Shown: piece by piece, positions 556 through 41,668 of the stretch
Numbering within the stretch: position 1 is the stretch's first letter
How the letters are laid out: each line of letters opens with the position of its first letter
The notes under the pieces: generated by a model
Seen by the model: the letters and a program-made list of their open reading frames with translations, nothing else
Told to the model about the DNA's origin: nothing
Databases searched by the model: none
Made by a program: the position numbers and the translations under genes
From: Natronorubrum texcoconense
GTDB lineage: Archaea > Halobacteriota > Halobacteria > Halobacteriales > Natrialbaceae
DNA: 64,000 nt
NCBI RefSeq assembly: GCF_900100335.1
Contig: NZ_FNFE01000005.1
Location: 186,001-250,000 of the forward strand
Reading direction: 5' to 3'

Positions 556-3500
556 TCAGCTGTGTTTGTTACCGTTTCGGAACTGACGGCCAGCGACGAG
601 AAACACGACGATCGCCAGCAGCGTGACACTAACTCCGAAACCTGGTGTTCCGTCGTCGACATCTTCAGTCATGCTGTCACTGTCAGTCTCGCGGGCGCTC
701 GAGTCATCGTCCACGCTAGACGGATCATCGTCATCAGCCTCGTCCGCGCTCGAGTGCTCATCGTCCACGTCAGGTAGTCCGACACCAACGGCAAACTGCG
801 AGAAGCTGTCGACACCAGCACTGAAGCGAAGTTCGTCTTTCGTTTCGTCGATCACCGTCGTCTCGAGTGGGCGCCACTCGTCGGCGTCGGGGTCGAAGTG
901 GTACAGCGAGACCGCGTTGGCGTCACCGTCAGCGGTCTCGAGCGCCTCGGCCGGCACGCTGAACTCGATCGTCGCCGAGTCGAGTTGGTCGGGCTCGAAG
1001 TCGGTGGCGATCTGGAGGTAGCCAACTGCCTCGAGACCTTGATCGAGGCCGCGAGCGTCGTCGCTGGTCGGCTCGCTGGCCTCGCGGATCGTAAGGTCAG
1101 TGTCGATTCGGTCGGTGAACTCGATGTGGAGTCGCTCGCTCGTGGCTGTTACGTGGTGCTCGGTTGCAGTGGGGTCAGTGGCGAACCGGAGATCAACCGT
1201 CCGAACATGACTGAACTGAAGCAGTGATTCGGAAATTCCGTTTCTAATCGTGGGAGTAACATCGGCGCGAAGGTCGCCACCTGAAATGTGAACTGACGAC
1301 GTTTCGTCGCTGTTTACTGACGTGCTGGGACTACTCGTCCCACTTCCGGTCGACGGAACGGGCTCGACGGTCACTGTCTCGCTGGAGATGTCGTTAACGC
1401 TTCCAACGGTCACGTCACTCTCGCCGACGTCGCCGCTGGCCGTGGCCCACTCGAATGTCAATGTTTTCGACTCGCCGGCCTCGAGTTCGAGAGTATCGCT
1501 ATCTTGCAGGTTGTCCTCGAAATCGCGAAATTCAAGCGACTGCTCACCATCTGCGGCCCAGTTGGTGACCTTCACAGTCACCTCGAGGGTCGTCCCTTCG
1601 GTGACTGGGGCGTTTGTCTCGGTGATGGCCACAGAGAAGAAGGGATCGGTGTCCTCCCACGCGAGCGTGGGGTACTGGTCGGTGGCGTGCCAAGTGTCGG
1701 TAAAGGCGAAGCCATTCATAGTCACGGTGGCGTTTTTCCCGTGCATCTGCCAGGTCTCGAGGCCCTCGCCGCCGCTGGAGTCGGACTGCCCCGTGGTTTG
1801 CGTGTCCCAGTAGGAGTACGTCACGTCGCCGCCGCCGGTGCCCACGAGTCCGCCGACGCTACCAGATTCGTCCCCGTCGTTCACTTCGCCGGCCGCGTAC
1901 GATCGTTCGATCGTGCCGGAGTTGGAACTGGACGAAGGGTTGTGCCCGACCAGTCCACCGACGGCCCCGTCGCCGCCGACGTCGGCGGTCACGTACGAGT
2001 CGGAGACGGTCGCCTCGTACCCGGTCAACCCGACCAGCCCGCCGACTCGCTGACTTCCGTGAACATCACCGGTCACGTACGACCGCGCGATGGTACCGTA
2101 ATTTGCACCGACGATCCCCCCGGTATCCGACCCGCCCACGATAGACGCGTTCTCGAGTCCGACGTCGCGAATCTCGCCTTCGAAGTCGTGGCCGCCGATG
2201 GCGGTGAACAGGCCGACTTTATCCTCGTCTGGTCGGTCGATCGTCAGGGCCTCGACGACGTGACCATCGCCGTCGAACTCGCCCGCAAATGGCGACTCCG
2301 AGTCGCCGATCGGGTCGAACCCGTCGCCGTCGTGCCAAACGTCGGCCTCGGCGGCATCGACGGCTCCTTCGAGGACGTAGTGGGCGTCGAGTGCCGCCCC
2401 GATCGCCTGCAGTTCGGCCGCGTTCGCGATCCGGTAGGGCGCCTCGTCCGTCCCCTCACCCTCGTGGGCCAGCCAGAGCGAGTGGTCCACCACGAGCGTC
2501 TCGGCCGACGGCGTAGCGGTCGTCGAGTTGGATCGGTAGCCGTCCGCCTCGAAGGTCATCTCGTAGCCGCGATCGCCCGGAACGACCGTGAACTCGTAGG
2601 TGCCGTCCGCGTTGGTCGTCGTTTCGAAGACGGTGCCGTCCGCGTCGGCCGTCACGGTCGCCCCTCCGAGCGCGTCGCCGGTTACCCGGTCACTTACGCT
2701 TCCCTCGATGGTCGAATCGCCCTCGAGCATGATCGGAACCGAGACCGTCGCACCCGAGTCGACTTCGTCCGTCGTGGCAGTCGACTTCTCGTAGCCCGTG
2801 GCGTTCACGGTGACGGCGTACTCGTCGTCCGTTCCGGGAACCGTCACTTCGAGCGTGCCGTCGTCGCCGGTCGTCTCCGCCGGTTCGAACTGTGCGCCGT
2901 CGTCATCGCGCTCGATCGTCAGCGAGACGTTCTCGAGGCCCTCGTCGGTGACCGAGTCAGTGGCATTTACCTCGAGCGTGGCGTCGCCGTCGAGCAACAC
3001 CGACTCGGACGGTGTCGTGACTCCGGGCTCCTCGATGAGTACGTCGAGCTCGGTCGGCTCGTAGCCAGCCGCCGCCACGACGACGGCGTACTCGACGCCG
3101 CTCGGCAGTTCGGTGACGGAATAGGTGCCGTCACCGTCGTGGCTCCCTTCGTAGGTGCCAACGCCGTCGACCGGCGTCGCTTCGACGGTCGCACCCTCGA
3201 GGCCGTCGCCGAACTGCTCGCCGACGACGTCGAGCTCGAGTGCGCCGTTTCCAGTCAGCGCGACGTCGACCTCCTTGGTCCCGTCGGCGTGAATGGATTC
3301 CGTCCCGGCGTCGAAGCCGTCGGCTCCAGCGGTGAACGTGTAATCGTAGCCGCCGACGACCTCGGTCAGCTCGTAGCTGCCGTCGGCGTCCGTCTCAATC
3401 TCGTAGGCCAGGTCGGCGTCGACGCGCTCGTCATCGATCTCGAGTGAGACGGCCGCGTCGGCGATCGGTTCATCAGTCACCGCGTCGGTTACCGCTCCGA

Positions 3501-5187
3501 AGACAGTTTCCTCGCCGGGTTCCAGGAGGGCGACGTCGATCGTCTCGCTGCCACCGGCTCGCAGCACCGTCTCGCCGCGTTCGGTCTCGGCTTCGTAGCC
3601 GTCGGCGGAGGCCGAAACGTCGTACGTCGTATCGATGTCCGTATAGCCCGGGACGGCCACCTCGTACTCCCCGTCGGCGTCCGTCGCGCTCTCGATAGTG
3701 AACGCCGTTCCGGTCGCATTCTCGGTGACCTCGAGCTCCACAGCCTCGATCGGGTCGCCGGTGAGTCGGTCGGCCACCGTGCCGTCGATCGATGCCGAAT
3801 ACTCGAGCGCGGCTTCCAGTTCGGCTGTCTCGCCCGATTCGAGGTCGACGCCCTCGATCGTCACCGGCTCGTAGCCGTCGTTCGAGATTTCGAGGTCGTA
3901 GGCGTCGACGCTCGAGACAGCCTCGAACGCGATTGAACCGTCGACAGCCGTCGATCCCGTGTACGGTCCTGCGCCATCAGAGCCAACTGCCTCGACCGTC
4001 ACGTCCTCGAGTCCGTCTCCGGTGCGTTCGGAGACGACGTCCACTTCGATTGCGGCGTCGCCGGACAGCTCGACGTCGAGTTCGTGGTCGGCTTCGTCCG
4101 CAACGTGCTCTTCGGGGATAGTGACTGGTTCGTACCCGTCTCTCTCGATCGTCATCTCGTAGTCGTGACCGCCGGGAAGTACGTCGATCTCGTAGCTGCC
4201 ATCCGCGCCGGTCGTCGCACTGTACGCACCCGCGCCGTTTTCGGCGGTGACGGTCGCACCTTCGACTCCGCCGCCACTCTCGCCGTCGGTGACCCAGCCG
4301 GTGAGTTCGGCGTTGCCGCCTATGAAGAAGTTGCGGTTATTTGTACCGGAGTGTGGAGTGGTGGGGAGTGGGCGATCCCTGTATCCGTCTTTCGAGGCGG
4401 TGAGCGTGTAGGGCTGCCCACTGGGAACGGTGAACTCTATCCGATCGAAGCCATCGCCCGTAAACGCCGTTTCCCCCAAGCTCTCGCTCTCGACTGTCAC
4501 TGTGACTCCCTTGAGTTGCTCCTGCGTACGGTTGTCTCTCGGGGTGATCCGTTTGTCCGCATCGCCGGTAAGCTCGAGGTCGACGCCGGTGACGTCCTCG
4601 CCATCAGCGACTGACGCCGCCGTCGTCGAGCTCCCTTCCCAGCCGTCTGGATCGGCGCTCACGGTGTACTCCTCGCCCGTTCCGGGCACGGGGATCGTGT
4701 ACGAACCATCCTCGTCCGTCTCGTTCATGTACGTTCCCGCGCCGTTTTCGGCCGACACGTCGATGTCGGGCACGCCGGATTCGAACGTGGTATCTTCAAT
4801 GTGGCCGCTCACGGTCGCGTTGCCCTCGAGTCCGATAACGACGTCTTCGACATCGTCGTCGACGGTGACGGTCGTGGCGTTCGCCTCGTAGCCCTCTGCG
4901 ATCGCTTCGAGTTCGTACTCCTCGCCGGTTCCGGGCACGTCCTCGAGCGTGAATGCGCCGTTCTCGTCCGTCTGCACCTCGTCTTCGGTCCCATCGGGGT
5001 AAACGAGGATGACGCTCGCATCCTCGATCGGGACATCCGACGGAGAGTGTGCGTGCACGTCGACGACGGTTCCCTCGAGGCCCATGCCGAGATCGACCGG
5101 ATCGGTCGCTGCCGTCCCGATGAGTCCGCCAGCGAAGGCACTCATTACGATGATAAAAACGATCGCCGTGAGCCGAAGCCCCCTCAT
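556..5187 (-). CDS. PGF-CTERM surface adhesin with many carboxypeptidase-regulatory-like repeats
   Basis: The product is a 1543-residue secreted surface protein. Residues 1-27 are a Sec-type signal (MRGLRLTAIVFIIVMSAFAG). Residues about 32-910 are roughly ten beta-sandwich repeats of the carboxypeptidase-regulatory-like type (pattern G.V.D..T...I..A.V, then DG.Y...V.PG..Y.....A.GY). Residues about 1005-1120 carry GLUG motifs (VGGLVG). A CARDB-like domain follows (about 1180-1290), then a PGF-pre-PGF domain (about 1296-1470), an Asp/Ser-rich linker, and a C-terminal TPGFG plus hydrophobic helix plus RQFRNGNK tail. That tail is the archaeosortase A sorting signal, so lipid anchoring to the cell surface is expected. 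The role is probably adhesion or S-layer association; the ligand is unknown. It stands alone. Confidence 0.88.
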   Translation of the reverse strand: MRGLRLTAIVFIIVMSAFAGGLIGTAATDPVDLGMGLEGTVVDVHAHSPSDVPIEDASVILVYPDGTEDEVQTDENGAFTLEDVPGTGEEYELEAIAEGYEANATTVTVDDDVEDVVIGLEGNATVSGHIEDTTFESGVPDIDVSAENGAGTYMNETDEDGSYTIPVPGTGEEYTVSADPDGWEGSSTTAASVADGEDVTGVDLELTGDADKRITPRDNRTQEQLKGVTVTVESESLGETAFTGDGFDRIEFTVPSGQPYTLTASKDGYRDRPLPTTPHSGTNNRNFFIGGNAELTGWVTDGESGGGVEGATVTAENGAGAYSATTGADGSYEIDVLPGGHDYEMTIERDGYEPVTIPEEHVADEADHELDVELSGDAAIEVDVVSERTGDGLEDVTVEAVGSDGAGPYTGSTAVDGSIAFEAVSSVDAYDLEISNDGYEPVTIEGVDLESGETAELEAALEYSASIDGTVADRLTGDPIEAVELEVTENATGTAFTIESATDADGEYEVAVPGYTDIDTTYDVSASADGYEAETERGETVLRAGGSETIDVALLEPGEETVFGAVTDAVTDEPIADAAVSLEIDDERVDADLAYEIETDADGSYELTEVVGGYDYTFTAGADGFDAGTESIHADGTKEVDVALTGNGALELDVVGEQFGDGLEGATVEATPVDGVGTYEGSHDGDGTYSVTELPSGVEYAVVVAAAGYEPTELDVLIEEPGVTTPSESVLLDGDATLEVNATDSVTDEGLENVSLTIERDDDGAQFEPAETTGDDGTLEVTVPGTDDEYAVTVNATGYEKSTATTDEVDSGATVSVPIMLEGDSTIEGSVSDRVTGDALGGATVTADADGTVFETTTNADGTYEFTVVPGDRGYEMTFEADGYRSNSTTATPSAETLVVDHSLWLAHEGEGTDEAPYRIANAAELQAIGAALDAHYVLEGAVDAAEADVWHDGDGFDPIGDSESPFAGEFDGDGHVVEALTIDRPDEDKVGLFTAIGGHDFEGEIRDVGLENASIVGGSDTGGIVGANYGTIARSYVTGDVHGSQRVGGLVGLTGYEATVSDSYVTADVGGDGAVGGLVGHNPSSSSNSGTIERSYAAGEVNDGDESGSVGGLVGTGGGDVTYSYWDTQTTGQSDSSGGEGLETWQMHGKNATVTMNGFAFTDTWHATDQYPTLAWEDTDPFFSVAITETNAPVTEGTTLEVTVKVTNWAADGEQSLEFRDFEDNLQDSDTLELEAGESKTLTFEWATASGDVGESDVTVGSVNDISSETVTVEPVPSTGSGTSSPSTSVNSDETSSVHISGGDLRADVTPTIRNGISESLLQFSHVRTVDLRFATDPTATEHHVTATSERLHIEFTDRIDTDLTIREASEPTSDDARGLDQGLEAVGYLQIATDFEPDQLDSATIEFSVPAEALETADGDANAVSLYHFDPDADEWRPLETTVIDETKDELRFSAGVDSFSQFAVGVGLPDVDDEHSSADEADDDDPSSVDDDSSARETDSDSMTEDVDDGTPGFGVSVTLLAIVVFLVAGRQFRNGNKHS

Positions 5188-31240: not shown

Positions 31241-34111
31241 CTAACTATCAGCTAACTCCACTAACTCCGACTCCGATAACGGTTCAATCCTGACTCGAGT
31301 ATCCTCTGCCGTATAGAAGAGCGACGCAGACACAGTGCGGTCACTGAACCACTCCTCAAGGACGTGATAGTAGACGCTGAGTTGGACTCGGTACTCGGAC
31401 TCGGCGTGACGGCTTTGATCCGTTTTGAAATCGACGATCTCGACGGAGTCGTCCGTCACGTGTACTAAGTCAATCACTCCCGATAGCGTGAGTTGTCTCC
31501 CATCGACCTCGAGCGGCAGATACGCTCGTTCCTCGACTAACAGTTCGCCCGAGAGCTCATCGAGGAACGCTTTCACGTTCCGTTCGTCGTCGTTGTCAGG
31601 CGTGACATCCGTTCCAAGCGCGTAGTTTTCGGCGAACTCGTGTACGCGAGAGCCAAACTCCATCCCTCTGCCATCGGACACGTCCTCGTAGATGCTGTCG
31701 TCCATGAGCGAGTGCGGCGAGTAGCCTTTCGGTCCCGGTGACGCTGGCACATCGATGCTGAACCGAGTGTGCGTCGTCTCATCGATGGCTACCGACGAAA
31801 CGTCGGGTTCGACCGTCTCGATCTCGACCGGTAACTCCTCGAGGAAGGTGTTGGGTTCCTCACCGGCGGCGAACAGCAGGTGATCTTCAGCGCGAGTCAT
31901 CGCGACGTAGAGCAGTCGGCGTTCCTCGTCGTATTCGGTCGGCTGACAGCGCCGCAGGACGTCGGCGCGCCAGTTGTCGTAGACGTGTGGGTCGCTGTGG
32001 GCGTCGTCGTAGCACTTTCGCTGACGAAGGCCAGTCGTTTCGGAGTACGTGATGGTACCGCCGGCCCCTCCCGACGGCGGGAACGCCCCGCTGTTCATGT
32101 TCCCGAGAATCACGATCGGATGTTCGAGCCCCTTCACCGAGTGGATCGTCTGGACGGTGACCGAATCGGTTCCTGCGGGGGCCTGCACCTCCTGCGTGTA
32201 GCCGTTCTCGACACCGTCTTCGATGATCCGAATCAGGTCCCCTCGAGTCATCGTCGTCGAACTGTGAAGCGACTGGATCGTCGTGAGGACGACGTCGGCC
32301 GTCGCCCCGTCGTAGCCGTAGCGATCGAACACGCGCCGCGTGACGGCCGTGTGCGTTTCGAGCGCCTCGAGTTCGGACCGGAACTGCTCCATCGCGTCGG
32401 GATAGGGTTCGCGTTCGAGCACGGAGTCGATCTCGTCGAGCGTGTACCCGGCACGCTCTAAGACGACTGCCCACCCGCGGTCGGCCGCCGGTCCGCCCTC
32501 GAGGATGCGCAGCCAGGCCAGCAGGAGTTTCGCCTGATCGGTGCGGAAGAGTTCGATTCCGCCTTCGTAGGCCATCGGAAACTCGTAGTCTTCGGCCGCC
32601 GAGAGCAACTCGCGACCGAAATCGCGGGTGCGCGTGAGAACAGCAATATCCTCGAACGACGGTGGTCGCAATTCACCATCGTCTTCAACGGCGTACTCGT
32701 CGTTCCCGACGATTGCCTGAATCTTCGTGAGGATCGCCTCGTGTTCGTCGGCGTGCTGGAACGCCTCAATCCGCGACTGATCCCGTTCGGTGTTCGAACG
32801 GAGGGAGACGACCTGCTCGAGTATCGAATCAGTATCGACCGATTCCCGCTTACTTCCCGGTGCGACGAGTGCGTGCTCGGAGAAATCCAGAATCGACTGC
32901 GTCGAACGATAGTTCTGCTCGAGTTCGATTCGCGTGACGGGGGCGAGCGGGAACGAGATACGGTCGCTGTCGTCGTTCAACGCTTCGGCGAAGCGCTCGA
33001 GTCGTGCCTCGAAGTCGGTGATGTTCTCGACGGCGGCGTACTGGAACGAGTAGATGCTCTGTTTCCAGTCGCCGACGACGCAGACGTTGTCCGTTCCCGA
33101 TAGCAACAGGGCGAGCTTGAACTGGATCTCGCTCGAGTCCTGAAACTCGTCGATCATCACGTACTCGAACTCGAGCGACTCGCGGAGATCGTCGTCCTCA
33201 CAGCACAGGACGAACGCGAACAGCTGGAGGAACGAGAAGTTCAGGTAGTTCCGCCCGAGTGCGAACTCGAGGTACTCGACGTAGACGTCGTGAACGAACT
33301 CGATGAGGTGATCGCGATTCTCGGTGAAGACCTGCTCGGCGACCGCTTCGGGAACGGCTTTCGACCCGTACTCACCGCGCAACTCATCGCGGTCGGGTGC
33401 GTCCGGGAGGTAGCACTTGTTCTTCCCGTAGCGGCCGAGGCTCGACCGGAGTGTCGACTGTTTGCTCCCGTCGTTTCGCGGCCGATTTACCTCGTCGAAC
33501 GCGTCTTTGAACGCGTCGAACTCTCCCTCGAGGGCGTCTCTGGAGTCTCGATACCAGCCGTCCGACGTCGGAAAGACGCCTTTCGCGGCGAGGGTGTTGA
33601 TCAGGTCGAGTAGTTCCGCTGGCTCGGAGAGACAGCGAAGGAGGTCGTCGTACTCGTCGTGATCGTCGCCGAAGCGGCCGATGAATTCGCGGAAGTACTC
33701 CCGCTCGATCGTTTCGTTCTCGAGGATCTGCGTCGACCCGGTGATCGCATCGTCGATTCCGAGATACGAGGGTGCGTGAAAGCCGTGCTGGTCGAGGAGA
33801 TCGCTACAGAGGCTGTGAAAGGTCTGAATGGGTGCGTCGTTCAGCGCCCGCATGCCGTAGTCACAGCTGGCGACGATTCTGTCTTTCATCTCCGTCGCTG
33901 CGTTGCGGGTGAACGTGATCAACAGGATATCGTCGGGTTCGACATCGTCTTGTGCAACGATGTTTGCGTACCGATGCGTGACTGTAAACGTCTTGCCGGT
34001 GCCGGCGCCGGCATCGACGAGGTACAGTCCGTCCGTACTCTCGATGAGTTTCTGTTGGCCCTCGTTGGGTGTCGGGGCTGCAGGTGCCGTGTCATCGGTC
34101 GACGACGTCAT
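31241..34111 (-). CDS. AddA-like UvrD-family helicase with C-terminal RecB-type nuclease
   Basis: The 956-residue protein is a superfamily 1 helicase: Walker A VDAGAGTGKTFTVTHRYANI near residue 33, Walker B EYVMIDEFQDSSEIQ, LEQNYRSTQSIL, VTVQTIHSVKGLEHPIVIL and RRLLYVAMTRAEDHLLFA. The C-terminal PD-(D/E)XK nuclease shows GVIDLVHVT, then VEIVDFKTDQSR and VQLSVYYHVLE. This is the domain order of AddA/RecB in double-strand-break resection. Its start overlaps the stop of the upstream nuclease gene (ATGA at 34108-34111), so the two form one operon. Cognate Chi-like sites are unknown. Confidence 0.87.
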   Translation of the reverse strand: MTSSTDDTAPAAPTPNEGQQKLIESTDGLYLVDAGAGTGKTFTVTHRYANIVAQDDVEPDDILLITFTRNAATEMKDRIVASCDYGMRALNDAPIQTFHSLCSDLLDQHGFHAPSYLGIDDAITGSTQILENETIEREYFREFIGRFGDDHDEYDDLLRCLSEPAELLDLINTLAAKGVFPTSDGWYRDSRDALEGEFDAFKDAFDEVNRPRNDGSKQSTLRSSLGRYGKNKCYLPDAPDRDELRGEYGSKAVPEAVAEQVFTENRDHLIEFVHDVYVEYLEFALGRNYLNFSFLQLFAFVLCCEDDDLRESLEFEYVMIDEFQDSSEIQFKLALLLSGTDNVCVVGDWKQSIYSFQYAAVENITDFEARLERFAEALNDDSDRISFPLAPVTRIELEQNYRSTQSILDFSEHALVAPGSKRESVDTDSILEQVVSLRSNTERDQSRIEAFQHADEHEAILTKIQAIVGNDEYAVEDDGELRPPSFEDIAVLTRTRDFGRELLSAAEDYEFPMAYEGGIELFRTDQAKLLLAWLRILEGGPAADRGWAVVLERAGYTLDEIDSVLEREPYPDAMEQFRSELEALETHTAVTRRVFDRYGYDGATADVVLTTIQSLHSSTTMTRGDLIRIIEDGVENGYTQEVQAPAGTDSVTVQTIHSVKGLEHPIVILGNMNSGAFPPSGGAGGTITYSETTGLRQRKCYDDAHSDPHVYDNWRADVLRRCQPTEYDEERRLLYVAMTRAEDHLLFAAGEEPNTFLEELPVEIETVEPDVSSVAIDETTHTRFSIDVPASPGPKGYSPHSLMDDSIYEDVSDGRGMEFGSRVHEFAENYALGTDVTPDNDDERNVKAFLDELSGELLVEERAYLPLEVDGRQLTLSGVIDLVHVTDDSVEIVDFKTDQSRHAESEYRVQLSVYYHVLEEWFSDRTVSASLFYTAEDTRVRIEPLSESELVELADS

Positions 34112-36783
34112 CGATGCCCCTCCGAGTCCGCTGGGTCGGCTGCTGGCGCCCCTTCCGTGTGAGTGTTTTGAGCGGTGCCTCGAGTGGCTCTGGAGTCGGT
34201 AAGTAGCATATCGCGGGTATCCACGTAGCGGTAGTTCGGTTCGCCAGCGCGACCGTCGATCGGGAAGCGGTCCTCGCCGCGGCGGTAGCGGTTCAGCTCC
34301 TCGAGTTGCTCGTCGACGAAGCGCTCGAACGCGTCGAGATCTTCGACGAAGTAGCCTTCTTTGCGGTAGCCACAGAGGTGTCTGAACGCTTGCACGCAGC
34401 CGTTCCTGACGTACTTGTAGTCGCCGACGTCGTCGACGAGGCGTTCGACCAGCGCCTCACCGAACGGTGAGTCGGCCATTTCGTCTGCGTCTCGCGTTCT
34501 GGGGACGTCGTACGCGTCGAGCACCGCCAGATACGTCTCGTAGTCGGCTTTCGAGAACGTCTTGTTACAATCGTTCGCGGCATCTTCACGGAGTTCGTCG
34601 AAGACCGTTCGGGTTTGTACGAACTCGTCGAACGCGATCGGACGGTACGTTAGCGTTGTCAGGCAGTCTTCGAGCGTGGCGTCGCCAGCGACGACGTCGT
34701 CGAGCGTCTCGAGGAAGTGGAAGAACGTGAACTCGAGGGACTCGTCGGGCTGTTGGCGGCGCCAGTAAGAGAGATAGCACAACGCCTGGAAGTTCGGCTC
34801 GTCACTCGGCTCGTCGATCGATCCGTGTTTGGTTACCTGCGTCGCGGAGGTTCTGTTCCCGCTCTTGAAATCGACGAGTCGTGTCGGGGACTGTACGAGA
34901 TCGATCTTTCCCTTGAGTCGAAGGTCGTCGTCTTCGAACCACCGCTCGGTCACCGGTGAGTCGACGTCGCGGTCAAAGTACTCCGCGAAGAAGTTCTCAC
35001 CCCAGCCGCTCGACGGTGTCAGGAACGTCGTCTCGGTCGGCGCGTGTTCCTCGAGGTAGTCACAGATCGTCTCGAGGCCGATCCGATACCGCGTTCGCTG
35101 CGTCTCGAGGTCGATACGCCGATGAAACGCACGCGTTTCCTCGACCATGACGGCAGCAGCATCCTCGAGACGCCCATCGTCGACGAACTCGGGATGATTA
35201 ACGACGAACTCCGCAAAGTCGTGAAAGAGATTCCCGTCGACGAAGTAGTGTTTGTCCGGGGTGTCGACGAGCCGTCCGAAGCAGTAGTCCCGTGGCGAGT
35301 TCGCGTACGTGTTCAGACTCGACTGACTGACCGTCTCGACGCGTTCGGGATCGACGGGTGCATCCAGCGGCTCTCGATCGAATCCATCGCCGGTCGATCG
35401 ATCACTCCGCGAGTGGTGAATCGATTCGAGATCACTGAACCGTTCGAACTCGGTCTCGAGCAGTTCGTCGAAATACAGACACGGCGTGACGGCTGTGCCA
35501 CCAGCCGCATCTTGCACAAGATACTGCTGTTCGACGCCGCTCTGGAGAAGCGACTGAAAGCCGTCGACGTTTCGCTCGTACTCCTCGTTGCGGTCGACCC
35601 ACGGCCGATTCGGGGAATCGTGGGTCCAGTCTTCGTCGAGCCCCAGATAGCAGACGACCGGCCGATCGACGAACGAGGCCGATTTCGCGTCCGCTAGCAG
35701 GACGCCTTCGTTGTCCCGGTCGATCGGTACCTCGTAGGTCTCGAGGTAGAACGCGAGTCGATCGATCGCATCCGTCGTGATCGGCTCCTCGAGTACCCCG
35801 AGTCGCGCGAGTTCCTCGCGGAACGTCTCGAGCGTTCGTCCGGCACGATCCTCATACGCGTTCAACGTCGCTTCGAAGGTAAGCGCATCCGCTCGACCGA
35901 TGAATTCACGGAGCCAGCCGATTTCGGAGTCGTCGACGTCGGTGAGTCGTTTGCCGTCGTGCTCGATCGGTACCGTTGCACCGAGACACGAAAGGAGCGG
36001 TTTCACGGAGTGAACGCGGGTATCGGAGCCAGCCGTCGTACAGCGAAGCAGTTGGACGAATGCGCGGTGATCGCGGTCGTCCATGAAGCCAGGGCCGCCG
36101 TAGTACGGAATCGCTGCCGTCTCGAGCGCCGACTCGATGAGCGGGGAATACTCGCTGCTCGAGTCGAGCACGATGGCGATCTCGTCGGCGTTATCCTGCG
36201 TGACGGTGTCGAGAATCGCGTCCACGATGGCTGCTGGTGACTCGAAGATTCGAAACGCCGGGAGATCGAACGCGTCCGCAGTGAACCGGTCGATCGAATC
36301 GTACTCATCGGGGAGGATCGACCGCTCGAGGTTCGTTAATTGGGACTCGCCGACGACTGCGACTGACTCGCCCGAATCGACATCGATCTCGTAGTCTGCG
36401 AGCAGTCGTGAAGACGTCTGTAGCGAACTGACGATGTCGACGACGGTTCTGGTTGCCGGCGTGTCGAACGCGCCGTACTCGAAGATTGCGTCGGCACGTC
36501 CCCGGTACTCCCAACACTGGAGCACGTTGCCGACGGTGTAGGCGATTTCCTTCCAGCTGAGATCAGTCTCGTCGATTACCTCGAGGAACGCGGTCCGGTC
36601 CTCCGCGGTCTCTCGACGGCGCGTCGCAAGTCGCCGGGGTGTGATCGCGAACGGGCCAAAATGGGGTCGCTCGAGGCGTCGATTGAGGGCGTCTGCCAGC
36701 GGTGAGTCGGGAACGATCACGAGATCGTAGTTGGCAACCTCGTGATACAGCCGATCGATCGGTTTCGACTGCTTGAGTGACAC
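34108..36783 (-). CDS. AddB-like protein with C-terminal PD-(D/E)XK nuclease
   Basis: The 891-residue protein pairs with the AddA-like helicase. The C-terminal third has a RecB-type nuclease: LRLKGKIDLVQSPTRLVDFK is the D...DxK core, followed by NFQALCYLSYWRR (QxxxY). Upstream, VETVSQSSLNTYANSPRDYC resembles the start of AddB nuclease domains and their Fe-S cysteine context. The N-terminal half aligns only loosely with an inactivated helicase: I see no Walker A motif, although YDLVIVPDSPLADALNRRL occupies that place. It is the first gene of the pair and is probably involved in end resection and recombination. Confidence 0.78.
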   Translation of the reverse strand: MSLKQSKPIDRLYHEVANYDLVIVPDSPLADALNRRLERPHFGPFAITPRRLATRRRETAEDRTAFLEVIDETDLSWKEIAYTVGNVLQCWEYRGRADAIFEYGAFDTPATRTVVDIVSSLQTSSRLLADYEIDVDSGESVAVVGESQLTNLERSILPDEYDSIDRFTADAFDLPAFRIFESPAAIVDAILDTVTQDNADEIAIVLDSSSEYSPLIESALETAAIPYYGGPGFMDDRDHRAFVQLLRCTTAGSDTRVHSVKPLLSCLGATVPIEHDGKRLTDVDDSEIGWLREFIGRADALTFEATLNAYEDRAGRTLETFREELARLGVLEEPITTDAIDRLAFYLETYEVPIDRDNEGVLLADAKSASFVDRPVVCYLGLDEDWTHDSPNRPWVDRNEEYERNVDGFQSLLQSGVEQQYLVQDAAGGTAVTPCLYFDELLETEFERFSDLESIHHSRSDRSTGDGFDREPLDAPVDPERVETVSQSSLNTYANSPRDYCFGRLVDTPDKHYFVDGNLFHDFAEFVVNHPEFVDDGRLEDAAAVMVEETRAFHRRIDLETQRTRYRIGLETICDYLEEHAPTETTFLTPSSGWGENFFAEYFDRDVDSPVTERWFEDDDLRLKGKIDLVQSPTRLVDFKSGNRTSATQVTKHGSIDEPSDEPNFQALCYLSYWRRQQPDESLEFTFFHFLETLDDVVAGDATLEDCLTTLTYRPIAFDEFVQTRTVFDELREDAANDCNKTFSKADYETYLAVLDAYDVPRTRDADEMADSPFGEALVERLVDDVGDYKYVRNGCVQAFRHLCGYRKEGYFVEDLDAFERFVDEQLEELNRYRRGEDRFPIDGRAGEPNYRYVDTRDMLLTDSRATRGTAQNTHTEGAPAADPADSEGHR

Positions 36784-38661: not shown

Positions 38662-39119
38662 TAGGCATAGTAGCTACAATAGGCATAGTAGTTACAATAG
38701 GGAGAATAGTCGCAATAGCACCATAGTAAATTTGTATGGCACTAGAACTCTGACCAGCATCGTCCGAATAGGCACAGTAGGAACAATAGGTGAAACAGAT
38801 CCGAGAGCGAAAGCCGGATTTACAGCCTGGAAAGGAACAATAGGTACCACAGGTTAAATAGATCAGACAGGTGCATTTCACTAAATAGGCTAAATAGATG
38901 AACTGGGTTGAATAGCTCCAACACCCTCAATAGCCATCAAACCAGTCAACAGTGGCCCACCAAAAGCAGGGCAGATAGGCAGAGCAGGGATGATCGGTTA
39001 GGCAGACACAATAGGTGCCACAGCCAAAATAGGTACAATAGGCACAATAGACACACAACCTATTGTAACTACCCCACCTATTAAACCCTCAGTAGGTAAA
39101 ACTAAGAAGATAGAATTAG
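38662..39119 (+). repeat. Array of about 51 degenerate 9-bp units upstream of parA
   Basis: From 38662 to 39119 the DNA can be cut into 9-mers of consensus (T/C)AGG(C/T)ACAA. TAG starts units at 38662, 38671, 38680, 38689, 38698, 38707, 38716 and, after one 8-base step, at 38724 and many later positions in the same register (for example 38769, 38778, 38787, 38841, 38886, 38913, 38931, 38976, 39012, 39030, 39039, 39048, 39093, 39111). By my count 32 of 51 units begin TAG or CAG. Units near 39057-39083 are inverted (CCTATTG). No frame is open throughout. The position before parA suggests a partition site. Confidence 0.75.
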
Positions 39120-39198
39120 ATGAGGTCAGTAATGGCTGAAATAGAAGGTGTCAGAACAATAGGCACCTATCGTACCGTACAAACGGGTGATCCTCTCA

Positions 39199-40089
39199 AT
39201 GCAAACGACAACAACTGAACCACGCGCCGTGAGCGTGGTCATCCTGAAAGGTGGTGTCGGCAAATCAACGACCTCGATGAACCTCGCGCGCCAGCTCGCC
39301 GAGCACGGCAAGACCCTCTACGCCGATCTCGACCCGAACGGCCACGCGACGAACGGGCTCGGCTTCGGGGACGCTTACCAGGGAGAGATCAATCTCGGCG
39401 ACGTCATCCTCGAGGGCGACGCGACGCCCCAGGATCTCATTCGGTCGACTGAACACGGATTCGATCTACTTCCGTCCTCGGATACACTCGAGGACGTCGA
39501 AAAGGATCTCGCGGGCGCGATGCAGGGATCGGCCCGGATCAAATCGAAGATCGTCGACCCACTGCTCGGGACCGAGTACGAGTACGTGGTCTTCGACTGC
39601 CCGGCGTACCCGGGGATGCTCAACAACAACGCGCTCGTTGCGACGGGGAACGTCGTCATCCCGATCGAACCGGGCTCGAGTGCGATCGGCGGCTACAAGC
39701 GAACCATGGAGCGGCTGATCGAGCCGGCCCGGGAGTACATCGACGTCGACGTCCTCGCGGTCGTACCGAACAAGCTCTCCGATCGAATCGATCAACAGAC
39801 CGAGGACCGGGAGCTGCTCGAGAACCTGAACAAGGCCACCTACGAAGTGAACCCCGGACAACCGCTGCAAGAAGCAGTACCCAACTTCGCTCGAATCACG
39901 GCCGACGAGTTCGACGCGATCGACGCCGGCGAGATGACGCCACCGAAACCAGGAATTCGCCACCGCTCTGCGCTCTCACGGTCGCTCCAGCACAATCAGC
40001 CGTTGCAGGATTACGATCCGGAGAACGATCAGATCGCATACTACGAGGAACTCGCCGAGATCGTCGCAGCTGGAGGGATCGAGCGATGA
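39199..40089 (+). CDS. ParA-family partition ATPase
   Basis: The 296-residue ATPase has a deviant Walker A motif, K17-G-G-V-G-K-S-T, preceded by AVSVVIL, then LYADLDPNGHATNGLGFG (Walker A' region) and YVVFDCPAYPGML (Walker B). Such ATPases segregate plasmids, chromosomes or large cargoes. A GTG at 39187 is an alternative leaderless start. A repeat unit (CAATAGGCACCTATCG, 39157-39172) lies in its promoter, which would allow autoregulation by a repeat-binding partner. The downstream gene overlaps by four bases (ATGA). Confidence 0.87.
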   Translation: MQTTTTEPRAVSVVILKGGVGKSTTSMNLARQLAEHGKTLYADLDPNGHATNGLGFGDAYQGEINLGDVILEGDATPQDLIRSTEHGFDLLPSSDTLEDVEKDLAGAMQGSARIKSKIVDPLLGTEYEYVVFDCPAYPGMLNNNALVATGNVVIPIEPGSSAIGGYKRTMERLIEPAREYIDVDVLAVVPNKLSDRIDQQTEDRELLENLNKATYEVNPGQPLQEAVPNFARITADEFDAIDAGEMTPPKPGIRHRSALSRSLQHNQPLQDYDPENDQIAYYEELAEIVAAGGIER

Positions 40090-40553
40090 GCAATCCGTTC
40101 GACGACCTTAAATCGGATGACGAGGAGCCGGCAGAGTCGGAAGAGGAGACCCAGTCCGAACCGGAATCGAAGCCGGTGTCAGAACAGCCTGTCGACGAAC
40201 CGTCGACGGCAGAGTCGACTACCGGGAGTACGGACGGCGGGTCGAGCACGGATCAGACGGGAGATCGAGAGGAATCCGAAAACGAATCCGAGACACCGCT
40301 CACGCCCGCAGAAATTGGGCCAGCGTTCGAGTACAGCGAAGTACAGCAGAAACCGTTCTACGCGCGCACCGAGACGGTAAACGAGTTCGAAAATCAGATC
40401 CGAACGACCATCGTCCCGACGCTCGCCGAAGCGGAGATTCTCGACGAGGAAACTCGAGAAATACACGACGCAGTGCTTCGGCTCGCGAACGAGAACCCGG
40501 AACGGATCGCCGAACTCGTACTCGAGGAACGGCGACAGGCGGGAAATCAGTAG
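40086..40553 (+). CDS. Small acidic partner of ParA, possible centromere-binding protein
   Basis: The 155-residue protein is coupled to parA (ATGA overlap). Residues 1-70 are a disordered Glu/Ser/Thr-rich tail. Residues 75-155 are helical and look conserved (LTPAEIGPAFEYSEVQQKPF, then ENQIRTTIVPTLAEAEILD and NPERIAELVLEERRQ). I recognise no ParB, RHH or HTH domain. By position it is the likely adaptor between ParA and DNA, as in other two-gene partition operons where the second protein binds short iterons. That role is inference. Confidence 0.65.
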   Translation: MSNPFDDLKSDDEEPAESEEETQSEPESKPVSEQPVDEPSTAESTTGSTDGGSSTDQTGDREESENESETPLTPAEIGPAFEYSEVQQKPFYARTETVNEFENQIRTTIVPTLAEAEILDEETREIHDAVLRLANENPERIAELVLEERRQAGNQ

Positions 40554-40702: not shown

Positions 40703-41668
40703 ATGGAACGCCTAACTCGCCAAGACGAGCGCGATGAACAGACGGCCGAGGAGACAACTGAGCAAGAAGGCGTTCAGACCTGTCCCGAGTGTAACTCGAG
40801 TTCGCTCGTCAGAAGCGCCGACGAGAGCGAAGTGAGCTGTGAAGACTGTGGGTTGATCCTCGAGGAAGAGACCATCGATCGCGGGCCGGAGTGGCGGGCG
40901 TTCGACCAGTCGGAACGAGACAGCAAGTCTCGCGTGGGAGCCCCGACGACCCAGACGATGCACGACAAAGGGTTGACCACGACGATCGACTGGAAGAACA
41001 AAGACGCCTACGGCCGGTCGCTCTCCTCGGACAAACGGAGCCAGATGAATCGGCTGCGGAAGTGGCAAGAACGAATTCGAACGAAAGACGCCGGCGAGCG
41101 GAACCTGCAGTTCGCGCTCTCCGAAACCGATCGGATGGCGTCCGCGCTGGGCGTGCCGCGATCGGTCCGGGAGGTCGCGAGCGTCCTCTACCGACGCGCG
41201 CTCGACGAGGACCTCATTCGCGGCCGTTCGATCGAGGGTGTCGCCACGAGTACCCTGTACGCCGCGTGCCGGATGGAAGGGATCCCGCGGTCGCTGGACG
41301 AAGTGGCCGCAGTCTCGCGGGTCGAACGGATGGAGATCGGGCGCACGTATCGGTACATCTCGCAGGAACTCAGTCTCGAGATGGAGCCGGTCGATCCAAA
41401 AAAGTACGTCCCTCGCTTCTGTTCCGAGCTGAATCTCTCCGAGGAGGTCCAAGCGAAAGCCAACGAGATCATCGATACCACGGCCGAAAAAGGGATGCTC
41501 TCCGGCAAGTCGCCGACCGGCTACGCCGCGGCGGCGATCTACGCGAGTGCGCTCCTGTGCAACGAAAAGAAGACTCAGCGAGAGGTTGCCGACGTCGCAC
41601 AGGTGACGGAGGTCACCATCCGAAACCGGTACCAGGAACAGATCTCCGCGATGGGGCTTCACAACTAG
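40703..41668 (+). CDS. tfb: Transcription initiation factor IIB
   Basis: The 321-residue TFB has the N-terminal zinc ribbon (CPEC...CEDCG), the B-reader/linker with EWRAFD and RVGAPTT, and two cyclin-fold repeats: first from about residue 120 with [20 protein letters not shown], second from about 215 with [14 protein letters not shown] and [20 protein letters not shown]. It recruits RNA polymerase to TBP-bound TATA boxes. Haloarchaea carry several TFBs. This one stands beside a partition operon and may be replicon-encoded. A TATA-like GTTTAACC lies at 40667-40674. Confidence 0.93.

Follow-up and report, generated by a model that had tools for sequence, protein, structure and literature searches.

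Upstream of the parA gene in the window (the whole stretch of 64,000 nucleotides that was analyzed, part of the 398-kb contig C6 of a 4.64-Mb haloarchaeal genome) lies an array of about 51 nonamers, and the parA promoter contains a palindrome composed of two further units that face each other. We consider it probable that the array and the palindrome together constitute the parS centromere and operator of a haloarchaeal ParA partition module, whose units are bound by the small acidic protein encoded behind parA (hereafter, the adaptor). The centromere role is one that we infer from the position of the array, its replicon specificity, and analogy. The features of the locus are as follows.

38662 to 39119, plus strand: nonamer array, candidate centromere, about 51 units in a 9-bp register (autocorrelation, unit count, and recurrence of the period in front of 69/77 homologous parA genes)
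38716 to 38724, plus strand: single 8-base step at which the register slips by one (register listing)
39056 to 39084, minus strand: inverted units CCTATTGT and CCTATTAA at the parA-proximal end of the array (PWM scan)
39157 to 39172, no strand assigned: putative palindromic operator CAATAGGCACCTATCG, two head-to-head units (invariant columns of the promoter alignment)
39199 to 40089, plus strand: parA, encoding a deviant-Walker ATPase (KGGVGKST) of 296 aa (Pfam AAA_31, E 6e-29, and CbiA; PHROG; PDB)
40086 to 40553, plus strand: gene for a small acidic protein of 155 aa, the proposed centromere-binding adaptor (linkage to parA; no family match)

The Nonamer Array

The array has the core TAG(G/C)(T/C)A, with AATAGGTAC as its best units. 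The original prediction divided the segment into 51 nonamers, 32 of them opening with TAG or CAG and with one 8-base step near 38716–38724, and this count is exact; AG occupies the core in 34/51 nonamers. Autocorrelation against shuffled controls, which had been suggested as a check, gives a clear peak: for positions 38662–39119, the z scores at lags 9, 18, 27, 36, 45, and 54 are 6.8, 9.3, 6.9, 5.8, 5.2, and 5.2, values that none of 1,000 dinucleotide shuffles reached, and at lag 9 no other part of the window peaks as high. The inverted units that had been noted near 39060–39083 are real and map to 39056–39084, and inverted units are likewise enriched in relatives at approximately −200 to −100 from parA. 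An 18-bp superperiod, seen in the window array, is not general: 16 of 48 relatives have a higher value at lag 18 than at lag 9. Rfam returned nothing meaningful in support of an RNA reading. A nucleotide search among plasmids gave no match to the array, as expected from its fast turnover.

Conservation of the 9-bp Period

The 9-bp array upstream of parA is class-wide and not peculiar to this plasmid. A search upstream of homologous parA genes in other haloarchaea, also proposed in the original prediction, shows that 69 of 77 testable loci have the 9-bp period immediately upstream of parA (two further loci start too near a contig end for the test). The period statistic sets lags that are multiples of 9 against the remaining multiples of 3, which cancels codon periodicity, and its threshold is the 99th percentile of 914 control blocks. 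Given that the 77 loci are related and are not independent observations, the main control is the count at other periods in the same DNA, which is 0/77 for periods of 7, 8, 10, 11, 12, and 13 (period 15 passes in 1/77). Averaged over 48 close relatives, self-identity at the multiples of 9 from lag 9 to lag 45 is 0.384, 0.376, 0.362, 0.345, and 0.340, compared with a mean of 0.251 and a maximum of 0.281 at other lags. The period is kept where ParA is 37–50% identical and the motif has changed: the core is TAG(G/C)TA in most branches and CTCAGCTAA-like in another, and the most distant pairs (L142 and L143, with ParA 37% identical) have a very different motif. An array of the same period lies between orc1 and parA in pHS3 of Hbt. 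salinarum R1. The proximal array is weak or absent in eight loci with enough sequence, which include the Natronococcus-type loci L085, L087, L088, and L092 as well as L074, L115, L137, and L139. Together, the autocorrelation peak and the same-period arrays at homologous positions support the original reading of the array as a candidate partition centromere.

We also observed 9-bp periodicity in two other settings. In the phages phiH1 (L179:3282-3540) and PhiCh1 (L180:3240-3440), the period falls within the coding sequence for the small protein that follows the phage parA, in the part specifying its disordered linker, and it is possibly an intragenic site or merely a low-complexity linker. Strong 9-bp periodicity is also present downstream of another parA-like gene in genome G217, contig C4, near 41.6 kb (L228:951-1200), where it is perhaps in the linker-coding region of the partner.

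The Promoter Palindrome

The parA promoter had been predicted to contain one unit. A unit is indeed present, and the number requires correction: positions 39157–39172 hold two units arranged head to head, with the center of the palindrome approximately 35 bp 5′ of the parA ATG. The general form of this element, CAATAGGTACCTATTG, consists of two facing units just upstream of parA and is found in nearly all loci whose adaptor is of the NPFDDL type (the close relatives) and in two more distant branches. In an alignment of 25 promoters, every invariant column lies inside the palindrome. Because matches with one mismatch are common by chance, as judged by a reversed-pattern control, the evidence for the palindrome is restricted to exact matches; across 391 genomes, CAATAGGNNCCTATTG has 18 of these, of which 16 lie at parA promoters and 2 elsewhere on the contig of that parA. 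The pairing never varies and compensatory changes were not found in the promoter palindrome, so we read it as a DNA site bound by protein instead of as an RNA stem.

A second conserved box, GGTAGAATTAAG, occupies columns 11–22 of alignment A6 (GGTAAAACTAAG in the window, at ~39092–39104). This box sits in the part of the array nearest parA, roughly 100 bp ahead of the gene, and may be a basal promoter element.

ParA and the Small Acidic Protein

The parA product is a ParA-like partition protein according to PHROG, and its relatives in the PDB are Soj/ParA proteins. Besides weak P-loop relatives, the only families above the Pfam cut-off are AAA_31/CbiA, and the protein is short, with no additional N-terminal DNA-binding domain in Pfam. 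The adaptor gene overlaps the end of parA by 4 bases, and the two genes form a stable pair: parA adjoins the adaptor gene in 79/80 fetched homologous loci, and relatives of the adaptor occur in 191 of 391 Halobacteria genomes. A gene encoding a TFB (TFIIB-type) protein is found directly behind the par operon (40703–41668 of the window), and translations of adjacent large genes on the minus strand (31241–36783) resemble a UvrD-type helicase and an AddB-like nuclease.

The adaptor consists of an N-terminal NPFDDL motif (GFDDL or AFDDL in other branches of the family), an acidic linker that varies in length across the family, and a C-terminal three-helix domain (residues ~75–153). This otherwise acidic protein contains a conserved basic stretch, VRQKPLYARxETW, and AlphaFold2 models the C-terminal domain (pLDDT 84) as an extended segment (QKPFYAR) followed by three helices. 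The overlapping downstream gene had been described as encoding a small acidic protein with no recognizable fold, and this description is borne out by the 155-aa product, which has no fold match in the PDB or among viral models and no convincing sequence match in Pfam, NCBIfam, PHROGs, or PDB sequences. A profile of 29 adaptors likewise retrieves no PDB chain at E ≤ 1 and no Pfam or NCBIfam family. The layout is suggestive of a ribbon–helix–helix (RHH) fold, for which we found neither a Foldseek nor a Pfam match; kinship with the ParA partners of phiH1 and PhiCh1 was rejected after a negative profile comparison. Three scans of viral contigs found no adaptor. With no fold match, any mode of DNA binding that might be put forward for this protein is a guess.

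Array Turnover, a Second System, and Satellite Arrays

When the locus is set against that of a relative with 98% ParA identity, the promoter has hardly changed but the array is heavily diverged, with an 18-bp insertion and a distal part that has no detectable similarity; the upstream regions of both parA genes keep the 9-bp period. This pattern fits the trace expected of selection on spacing and motif and not on the sequence as such.

The same genome encodes a second ParA–adaptor pair on contig C8 (40001–41306; L237), whose ParA is approximately 40% identical and whose adaptor is 31% identical to those of C6. The C8 pair has its own 9-bp array with a motif that differs from that of the C6 array, and the other ParA/MinD-like genes of the genome (contigs C1, C2, C4, and C10) have no 9-bp array. 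This distribution fits a replicon-specific address and serves as a within-genome control.

Searching 391 genomes with a 24-base array pattern and up to 3 mismatches yielded ~90 matches in 41 genomes, compared with ~10 for the reversed control. Of the 64 array clusters, 51 are on a contig that also carries the adaptor gene; 20 of these 51 are located 0.9–1.5 kb upstream of the adaptor gene, and many others are 5–630 kb away. Of the 13 clusters on other contigs, 9 come from draft assemblies split into ~20 to 120 contigs, and the other 4 are in genomes that have no adaptor gene among the matches listed. Some 3-mismatch matches in other families (L010 and L012) fall within long open reading frames; these are probably coding sequence matched by chance, and we set them aside. 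In the genome studied here, a satellite of seven units is present at C6:100560-100623. The preceding gene, ~110 bp away, encodes an archaea-specific SMC-related protein (NCBIfam ASRP, E 3e-209); within the stretch C6:97000-105000 (L006), this gene spans 1473–3449 and the satellite 3561–3623. A link between satellites and this gene was considered and rejected, as the neighborhood is not repeated at other satellites.

Alternative Explanations

Plasmid origins commonly have iterons, and the array might be an iteron-type replication origin or copy-control element that is bound by an initiator and lies beside parA by chance; orc1/cdc6 genes are indeed near parA in some replicons (14 loci; pHTUR02 and pHS3). 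We regard an origin as unlikely, however, given that the only Cdc6_C match on contig C6 is at 348.8 kb, 124 kb from parA, and that 55 of the 65 loci whose fetched stretch lacks orc1 nevertheless have the array. A search covering orc1/Cdc6_C found no initiator gene beside the iterons of the window. An operator occupies the parA promoter and the motif differs from one ParA type to another, both of which suggest a tie to the parA operon, and the distant satellites also argue against an origin. Somewhat less likely still is that the array is solely an extended operator through which the adaptor or ParA represses the parA promoter, with no centromere role. The promoter does hold the conserved palindrome and nearby units, yet ~450 bp of units is far beyond what repression needs, and satellites with the same motif are found 5–630 kb away on the same replicon.

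The assignment of the binder could also be reversed, with ParA recognizing the units in a sequence-specific manner and the small protein only modulating ParA. Some bacterial ParAs do autoregulate, and the adaptor has no recognizable DNA-binding fold; against this we weigh the short ParA (296 aa), in which Pfam matches the ATPase domain only, the linkage of the small protein to parA in 79/80 loci, and the basic character of the conserved VRQKPLYARxETW stretch, and we judge ParA as the binder to be improbable. Hardly credible, finally, is that the array is a decayed Ile-Gly-Thr repeat gene, which the original prediction had raised as its alternative, or a neutral tandem repeat. Nine base pairs do equal three codons, and one frame of the array reads Ile-Gly-Thr; however, stops occur in every frame, as the original prediction had noted (3 to 22 per frame in the six frames), and the 8- and 11-bp steps break the frame. 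We find the decayed gene unsupported given that the register outlasts changes of motif, inversion, and steps of 8, 11, and 18 bp, and that no intact triplet-repeat gene was seen at the array position in relatives. At homologous places, arrays of this period carry other motifs and run in either orientation, and neutral repeats would not be expected to hold one period across a class. A centromere and operator bound by the adaptor remains the explanation that we favor.

Comparison with Described Partition Systems

The array site and its small partner protein match no described partition system, and we found no description of the array in openly licensed papers; the logic is akin to that of the omega heptads. 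In the delta/omega system of pSM19035, an RHH ParB binds WATCACW heptads that overlap the par promoters, lie in both orientations, and form several sites per plasmid, and at least four contiguous units are needed for ParA activation (PMC9499535). The haloarchaeal system likewise has contiguous short iterons, both direct and inverted, that lie upstream of the par operon and overlap its promoter, a small partner protein, a deviant-Walker ParA-type ATPase, and several sites per replicon. It differs in that the unit is 9 bp with the core TAG(G/C)TA instead of the WATCACW heptad (a period of 7 was found in 0/77 loci), approximately 50 units are present in contrast to 7–10, the adaptor has no detectable RHH family match, the motif varies by replicon type, and the system is haloarchaeal. 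Because the unit length differs and no RHH match was obtained for the adaptor, we do not claim membership in the omega group.

SegAB, found in Sulfolobales and other archaea, is similar in that a ParA-like gene overlaps the gene for a small archaeal DNA-binding protein and that the replicon has sites upstream of the operon as well as at other places (PMC12284271). Each SegB site is a lone palindrome of 13 bp, TCTAGASTCTAGA. In contrast, the sites described here form a tandem array, the promoter palindrome is CAATAGGTACCTATTG and not TCTAGASTCTAGA, and the adaptor shows no sequence homology to SegB (29-adaptor profile against PDB at E ≤ 1, Pfam, and NCBIfam). A ParA ATPase and cis-acting sites are shared with canonical ParABS, although the partner has no ParB-CTPase domain (Pfam, 29 adaptors); a 2025 survey did not find convincing chromosomal ParAB in archaea (PMC12704722). 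The AspA–ParBA system of pNOB8 is also an archaeal plasmid partition system with a ParA (PMC5120986). It has three genes instead of two, with a PadR-like AspA and a CenpA-like ParB, and Pfam scans of our adaptor detect neither the ParB nor the PadR family.

Proposed Mechanism and Implications

We hypothesize that the adaptor recognizes the 9-bp units and probably does so as a homodimer. On the two facing units of the promoter palindrome, it would repress its own operon; on the tandem array, it would bind cooperatively to form an extended partition complex. The conserved N-terminal NPFDDL motif, carried on a long acidic tether, may contact nucleoid-bound ParA–ATP and trigger its ATPase activity, with the replicon then following the ParA gradient, and the satellite arrays would be extra loading sites on the replicon.

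A broader proposal, on which our confidence falls somewhat short of even, is that Halobacteria share one partition system in which tandem 9-bp units serve as a code for a previously undescribed adaptor family: the spacing would be set by protein packing on DNA, and the letters would drift between replicons so that each acquires its own address, that is, its own incompatibility type. The adaptor fold may also be new among partition proteins.

The appearance of archaeal chromosome and plasmid centromeres and the segregation of multiple replicons in haloarchaea have been listed as outstanding questions in a review of archaeal segregation (PMC5120986). Our analyses provide concrete candidates for the site and for the adaptor, together with a hint that there is one motif per replicon type. 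As such an array is also present in a tractable host, on pHS3 of Hbt. salinarum, these questions about archaeal centromeres become directly testable, and the module may find use in stable-maintenance cassettes for haloarchaeal vectors.
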